Origin: Utricularia gibba
Lineage: Eukaryota; Streptophyta; Magnoliopsida; Lamiales; Lentibulariaceae
Length of the DNA: 64,000 nt
Reading direction: 5' to 3'
NCBI GenBank assembly: GCA_002189035.1
Contig: NEEC01000017.1
Coordinates: 2,480,001-2,544,000, forward strand
The notes under the pieces were generated by a model that worked only from the letters and a program-made list of their open reading frames with translations, did no database searches and was not told the DNA's origin. How positions within the stretch are numbered: the first letter of the stretch is position 1; each line of letters starts with the position of its first letter. The position numbers were made by a program, and so were the translations under genes. This document shows positions 37,477 through 38,332 of the stretch, in pieces.

Positions 37477-37902
37477 TCAGCAGGGGAACATTTGAGGTGA
37501 AGCAGGGAGGCGTTGGACGGGGCATGGGAGCTGCCACGGCTCAAGCAGAATATCCGGGATCGCCGGAATATCCACATCCAGAGCGCCGACCTCCGATGCG
37601 ATTTCAAGAACTGAGTTGAGGCAACGAAGACGATCGGTGAGTTGGGACAGCTCCGCCCTCAAGACATTGTTCTCGGATGCGAAGTTGATGTAGAGATCAG
37701 CTGAGGCATCAATCATGGTCCTCAACCTGTTGTTCTCCTCCTGAATTTGGGTCACTTGACCGATCAGCTCATCCAAGTGCTTTTGCTTCCTCATCCGTGA
37801 CCGTCGGGCTGACTCGCGGTTGGACAGCATCCTCTTCCTCTTCCTCTCATCGCCCCCCGAGGATCCCGGGCTATTCGGCAGTTGTTTAGAGGCCATGGAC
37901 AT
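37477..37902 (-). CDS. S1-group bZIP transcription factor
   Basis: A short single-exon bZIP of 141 residues, matching group S1 (bZIP11/2/44/53/1 relatives), low-energy and sugar-signalling regulators that pair with group C bZIPs on ACTCAT and G-box elements. The basic region has the invariant N28-x7-R36 (NRESARRSR), preceded by a KRKRM nuclear signal. The leucine zipper follows (HLDELIGQVTQIQEENNRLR onward with heptads to about residue 95). The mRNA leader carries the conserved sucrose-control uORF ending 58 bases before this ATG, which itself supports the S1 assignment. Translation may start at M1 or M3 (MASK). The S1 member that is orthologous is not decided; bZIP11-like is the best guess. 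Confidence 0.95.
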   Translation of the reverse strand: MSMASKQLPNSPGSSGGDERKRKRMLSNRESARRSRMRKQKHLDELIGQVTQIQEENNRLRTMIDASADLYINFASENNVLRAELSQLTDRLRCLNSVLEIASEVGALDVDIPAIPDILLEPWQLPCPVQRLPASPQMFPC

Positions 37903-37960
37903 AAAAAAGGGGAAGGGGGGGTTGTCGATTCAACACGTTGAGGTGGTCGGGACAAGCGGT

Positions 37961-38044
37961 TCAAGAGAAAACGTAGAACCAGTAGAGAAAGACAACTGAG
38001 AAGGAGTGAAGAATTCTAATCCTGCGCACCCGGATCCCCGTCAT
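37961..38044 (-). CDS. Sucrose-control peptide uORF (CPuORF1 type)
   Basis: A 27-residue upstream ORF, ATG at 38044 and TGA at 37961-37963, too short for an ordinary gene call. Its C-terminus reads SFSVVFLYWFYVFS followed by stop, the hallmark of the SC-peptide found in leaders of group S1 bZIP mRNAs. In Arabidopsis bZIP11 this nascent peptide stalls ribosomes when sucrose is high and represses translation of the main ORF (sucrose-induced repression of translation). The N-terminal part (MTGIRVRRIRI) is not conserved with Arabidopsis, as expected. I infer the same control here. Confidence 0.93.
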   Translation of the reverse strand: MTGIRVRRIRILHSFSVVFLYWFYVFS

Positions 38045-38076
38045 GTAAACCCACTGACAAATAACAACAGAAACAT
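38041..38076 (-). CDS. Second uORF overlapping the sucrose-control uORF
   Basis: An 11-codon ORF (MFLLLFVSGFT) upstream of the bZIP gene. Its TGA overlaps the ATG of the sucrose-control uORF as ATGA, an arrangement that allows termination-reinitiation or leaky scanning. Its peptide is not one I recognise. That it is translated is inference. Confidence 0.5.
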   Translation of the reverse strand: MFLLLFVSGFT

Positions 38077-38320
38077 GGAGCAACTGTATTCCCAAGCCCT
38101 GTGCTATGCTAACTTGTGAAAACTAGAACTAACAAGTGGGAGAGAGGAGAGATGATTCAATCTACAGATGTGAGAAAGAGAAAGGAAATCAGCAGGCAAC
38201 ACAAAACATAGAAAAAAAAAAAAAAAGAGAGATAAATGAGCAAGGGAAGAGAAGAGGAGGACCTCAGAAGCCACGTGGAGACTCAAGTCGTTGGAAGGAG
38301 GTGGAAAGAGTGAGGAGAGG

Positions 38321-38332
38321 GGATATTTATAG
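38321..38332 (-). promoter_or_regulatory. TATA box of the bZIP gene
   Basis: On the minus strand CTATAAATATCC is a near-perfect plant TATA box. It predicts a start site near 38290-38300 and thus a leader of about 390 bases, long enough to hold both uORFs, as in other S1 bZIP genes. Confidence 0.65.

Follow-up and report, generated by a model that had tools for sequence, protein, structure and literature searches.

Whether the very short open reading frame (ORF) at positions 37961 to 38044 of the window, that is, the 64-kb stretch of Utricularia gibba DNA analysed here, is a conserved sucrose-control uORF (SC-uORF) acting on the neighbouring bZIP gene, and whether its length sets it apart from other SC-uORFs, are the two questions raised by this locus. 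Among the papers searched, none joined Utricularia, bZIP and uORF.

Anatomy of the SC-uORF and its bZIP leader

Translation of the window gives, on the minus strand from 38044 to 37961, the ORF MTGIRVRRIRILHSFSVVFLYWFYVFS followed by a TGA stop. The frame spans 84 nt and comprises 27 codons and the stop, hence the 28 codons of the original prediction, and its peptide is made of 13 residues, MTGIRVRRIRILH, followed by the 14-residue conserved core SFSVVFLYWFYVFS (37964 to 38005), again as predicted. It carries a single in-frame AUG. The plus-strand reading of the same positions is interrupted by an internal stop; a 34-aa plus-strand ORF at 37895-37999 was considered as coding and discarded, as it is absent from the paralogous loci L002 and L003, whose antisense ORFs differ and are unrelated. 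Six-frame translation of the window contains the core a single time, and a Pfam search with the uORF peptide gave no match.

Specifically, residues S14, S16, L20 and Y24 of the window peptide correspond to Ser-29, Ser-31, Leu-35 and Tyr-39 of AtbZIP11, which have been reported as required for sucrose-induced repression (PMC4960570), and all four are present at the same spacing; paired arginines are found as well. The TGA (37961 to 37963) directly follows the core (...FYVFS), the standard place in angiosperms, in which the stop position has been termed invariable (PMC4960570); the same holds for 9 of the 10 paralogues described below, L004 being the deviating copy. With the essential residues in register and the stop in its standard position, the frame is assigned to conserved-peptide uORF (CPuORF) homology group 1, a group recorded in five rice bZIPs and in each of the five S1 bZIPs of Arabidopsis (PMC2075485).

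The SC-uORF lies on the same strand as the main ORF (37477 to 37902, minus strand), upstream of it and without overlap, the two being separated by a spacer of 58 nt (37903 to 37960). The main ORF encodes an intact bZIP protein of 141 aa (Pfam bZIP_1, E=1.4e-12; bZIP_2 also matched), which we designate S1-type on the grounds of the uORF and of bZIP similarity. Its frame is short and intronless, and among the bZIP loci compared in the genome a leader of this kind was found only at those bearing an SC-uORF. Two in-frame AUGs are available to it, at 37902 and 37896 (MSMASKQ); the second is present in all three closest paralogues, and L003 and L004 have it without the first, so that the true start may be at 37896.

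A TATAAAT box, conserved in the two closest paralogues, maps to 38325 to 38331 (minus strand), 287 nt upstream of the SC-uORF AUG. The transcript start is therefore predicted to lie upstream of the uORF, which would make the latter part of the transcript. Between this box and the main ORF, reading of the predicted leader reveals three uORFs: the 6-codon MFCVAC (38189 to 38209, minus strand), the short MFLLLFVSGFT (38041 to 38076, minus strand; hereafter uORF1), whose TGA overlaps the AUG of the SC-uORF (ATGA), and the SC-uORF itself.

The arrangement closely resembles that of AtbZIP11 (ATB2/GBF6, At4g34590), whose uORF2, also of CPuORF homology group 1, shares with the window copy the C-terminal SC core, the S, S, L, Y spacing, the stop right after the core and the location within a bZIP mRNA leader. 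Both leaders also contain several uORFs and weak AUG contexts: uAUG1 and uAUG2a of AtbZIP11 are reported as weak in context (PMC3020687), and the SC-uORF AUG has a T at -3 in 9 of the 10 U. gibba paralogues. The small uORFs around the SC-uORF differ between the two leaders, and Arabidopsis has two in-frame AUGs (2a, 2b) and an SC-peptide of 28 residues, while the window copy has one AUG and 27 residues. The SC-uORFs of tobacco tbz17 and strawberry FvebZIPs1.1 likewise place a conserved SC peptide upstream of an S1 bZIP, and both repress their main ORF, as established by reporter or editing (PMC3310857, PMC7470447). The RR pair is common to the strawberry peptide and the window copy, and in strawberry the paired arginines were among the altered codons (PMC7470447). 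The window copy has one AUG; by contrast, the tbz17 work mutated both the start and the second Met, and editing in strawberry altered two AUGs. The S1 5'uORFs of gymnosperms (Picea abies, Pinus taeda) are more distant: they repress in response to sucrose and have the Leu-35 and Tyr-39 equivalents, as does the window copy, but they lack both serines and stop at another position. The window copy belongs with the angiosperm form.

All together, these features make it very probable that the window holds a conserved sucrose-control uORF of homology group 1 in the leader of an S1-type bZIP gene, including the proposed sucrose switch, the sucrose part being argued by analogy with AtbZIP11. The original prediction is thus upheld as to the exact ORF, now placed on the minus strand, its motif and its place in a bZIP leader. 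The window copy is a further example of a known switch, itself ordinary, and not a new switch; its presence would extend that switch to a rootless carnivorous plant.

Conservation among the paralogues

A tblastn search with the 27-residue peptide over the assembly of the same genome (100.09 Mb, 516 contigs) returned eleven matches, with E values from 1e-11 to 0.016. Ten of them (L001-L010) lie within the leaders of bZIP ORFs, 42-153 nt separating the uORF stop from the first bZIP AUG, and the eleventh, L011, is a degenerate remnant that has no bZIP. When 11 further bZIP loci were inspected together with 1.5-kb flanks, none contained the core motif. Ten S1-type genes with an SC-uORF leader are therefore retained in a genome of about 100 Mb, which has undergone two recent duplications (PMC8333044), and length-filtered gene finders would miss all ten uORFs.

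Comparison among L001-L004 shows that the uORF is a conserved island inside a diverged leader. Against the three closest paralogues, 75/84, 69/84 and 64/84 bases of the uORF are identical; in the same comparisons, identity falls to 40/80, 26/80 and 37/66 over the 80 nt that precede it, and the spacer has 31/56, 18/56 and 18/39. In addition, the closest copies differ almost only by synonymous changes. Over the 27 codons of L001-L003, pN was 0.032 and pS 0.38-0.73; the bZIP frames of the same pairs have a pN of 0.075-0.116, above that of the uORF (0.03). Between L001 and L003, 14 of the 15 differences fall on third positions (P=2e-6). Pooled over all ten paralogues, pN/pS is 0.09 for the core, and it is 0.22 over 21 codons. 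This pattern of substitution indicates that the SC-uORF peptide is under purifying selection.

At four of these loci (L005, L006, L007 and L008) the uORF is intact and the bZIP frame of the main ORF is broken by a frameshift, located at or near short G runs in L006, L007 and L008 and near the RKQKH codons in L005. We considered these four copies as pseudogenes; the placement of the shifts at or near G runs (L006-L008) favours uncorrected long-read indels, and we infer that the frameshifts are probably assembly errors.

Proposed mechanism, alternatives and peptide length

For AtbZIP11, the sucrose response is due to uORF2b, which starts from the second AUG (PMC1896003), and the nascent peptide arrests the ribosome on the stop codon when sucrose is high (Yamashita 2017, cited by both PMC8795868 and PMC11120861). 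By analogy, sucrose-induced stalling at the SC-uORF stop is the best candidate mechanism for the window gene. On the model of AtbZIP11, tobacco tbz17 and others, the weak-context uAUG would be used by a fraction of the scanning ribosomes, its context allowing leaky scanning, and the nascent SC-peptide would occupy the exit tunnel. High sucrose would make termination stall at the TGA, and the stalled ribosome would block those behind it, keeping bZIP translation low. Under low sucrose, ribosomes would either leak past the uORF or finish translating it and start again at the main AUG. The 58 nt to that AUG slightly exceed the 50 nt reported to be necessary or sufficient for reinitiation in wild-type Arabidopsis (PMC3020687).

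The prediction of sucrose-dependent repression is well supported by the motif, the essential residues, the stop position, the signature of selection and the place upstream of a bZIP frame. That the frame could instead be a chance ORF or a non-functional relic is suggested by its shortness and by L011, which shows that relics of the SC-uORF do exist in this genome; this explanation is nevertheless refuted by the eleven hits in the genome, the best with E=1e-11, by conservation limited to the ORF and by the synonymous bias, with an intact bZIP downstream, and its probability is negligible. A different case would be constitutive repression of the bZIP by translation of the uORF, through peptide-dependent stalling, the sucrose response having disappeared or changed in this lineage of aquatic carnivores. 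Sequence alone cannot separate constitutive from sucrose-dependent stalling, and the displacement of the stop by three codons in L004 indicates that not every copy of the system in this genome is frozen; however, the window copy keeps all four sucrose-control residues together with the stop position, and the copies are under strong purifying selection, so that we regard constitutive repression as very unlikely.

The original prediction had also called this peptide shorter than the Arabidopsis version and close to a minimal natural SC-peptide. The first statement stands with respect to the full uORF2, which is longer; with respect to the SC-peptide produced from uORF2b, described as 28 residues (PMC8795868), the difference is of one residue only. 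As to the second, 27 codons are the shortest class among the paralogues here, and the window copy has no counterpart of the earlier in-frame AUG found in the paralogues with two (L005, L006, L008, L009 and L010, with products of 39-41 and 28-29 residues); yet the same 27-residue length is shared by 4 of the 10 intact SC-uORFs (L001, L002, L003 and L007), L004 having 30 residues, and initiation at internal AUGs could yield products of 22-24 residues from L002 and L003. The window copy thus matches what the second AUG produces, less one residue, and is no special minimal version, a specially shortened N-terminal part being improbable in our view. Moreover, a chain of 27 residues should be wholly within the tunnel when the ribosome reaches the stop codon, and a short N-terminal part need not matter. 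In conclusion, the identification as an SC-uORF is sustained by sequence, position and selection, and the claim of unusual shortness is not.

The overlapping uORF1 and natural variants of the SC-uORF

A short out-of-frame uORF overlapping the first SC AUG was found in 8 of the 10 paralogues (L001-L003, L005-L007, L009 and L010), and its TGA forms part of the ATGA at the SC start in L001-L003. Shuffling of the 100 nt upstream gives an expectation of 3.2 such overlaps (P=0.0017 if the copies were independent); the copies are related, however, and the excess is therefore only suggestive. This overlap could reflect a maintained gate on ribosome entry to the sucrose sensor, either carrying ribosomes past the SC AUG or feeding it through stop-start reinitiation, a tentative idea to which we assign a rather low probability.

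The set of paralogues also contains natural variants (the displaced stop of L004, the F to L change of L010 and the fossil L011), which offer ready material for testing what parts of the SC-peptide are important. In L004 (G000:C317, match 646337-646414, minus strand), which offers a natural test of stop position, one lost base has displaced the stop: compared with L003, the T of the stop is missing (TCAGAG instead of TCATGA), and the peptide ends ...WFYVFSEAS, three residues past the standard end. This uORF lies upstream of an intact bZIP ORF of 132 aa. As gymnosperm versions with another stop position are still sucrose-responsive (PMC4960570), loss of control in L004 is possible, not certain.

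L011 (G000:C414:1962551-1962613, plus strand) is a fossil SC-uORF, recognisable from a 153-nt stretch that is 80% identical to the leader of L008; its ATG, frame and stop are lost, and a core S has changed to N. There was no bZIP match within its 3-kb locus, which suggests that an SC-uORF persists only as long as it has a bZIP to control. Finally, L010 (G000:C98:2080453-2080518, plus strand) has W-L-Y in the core in place of W-F-Y (FLYWLYYIS), at a position that is otherwise constant in the set.
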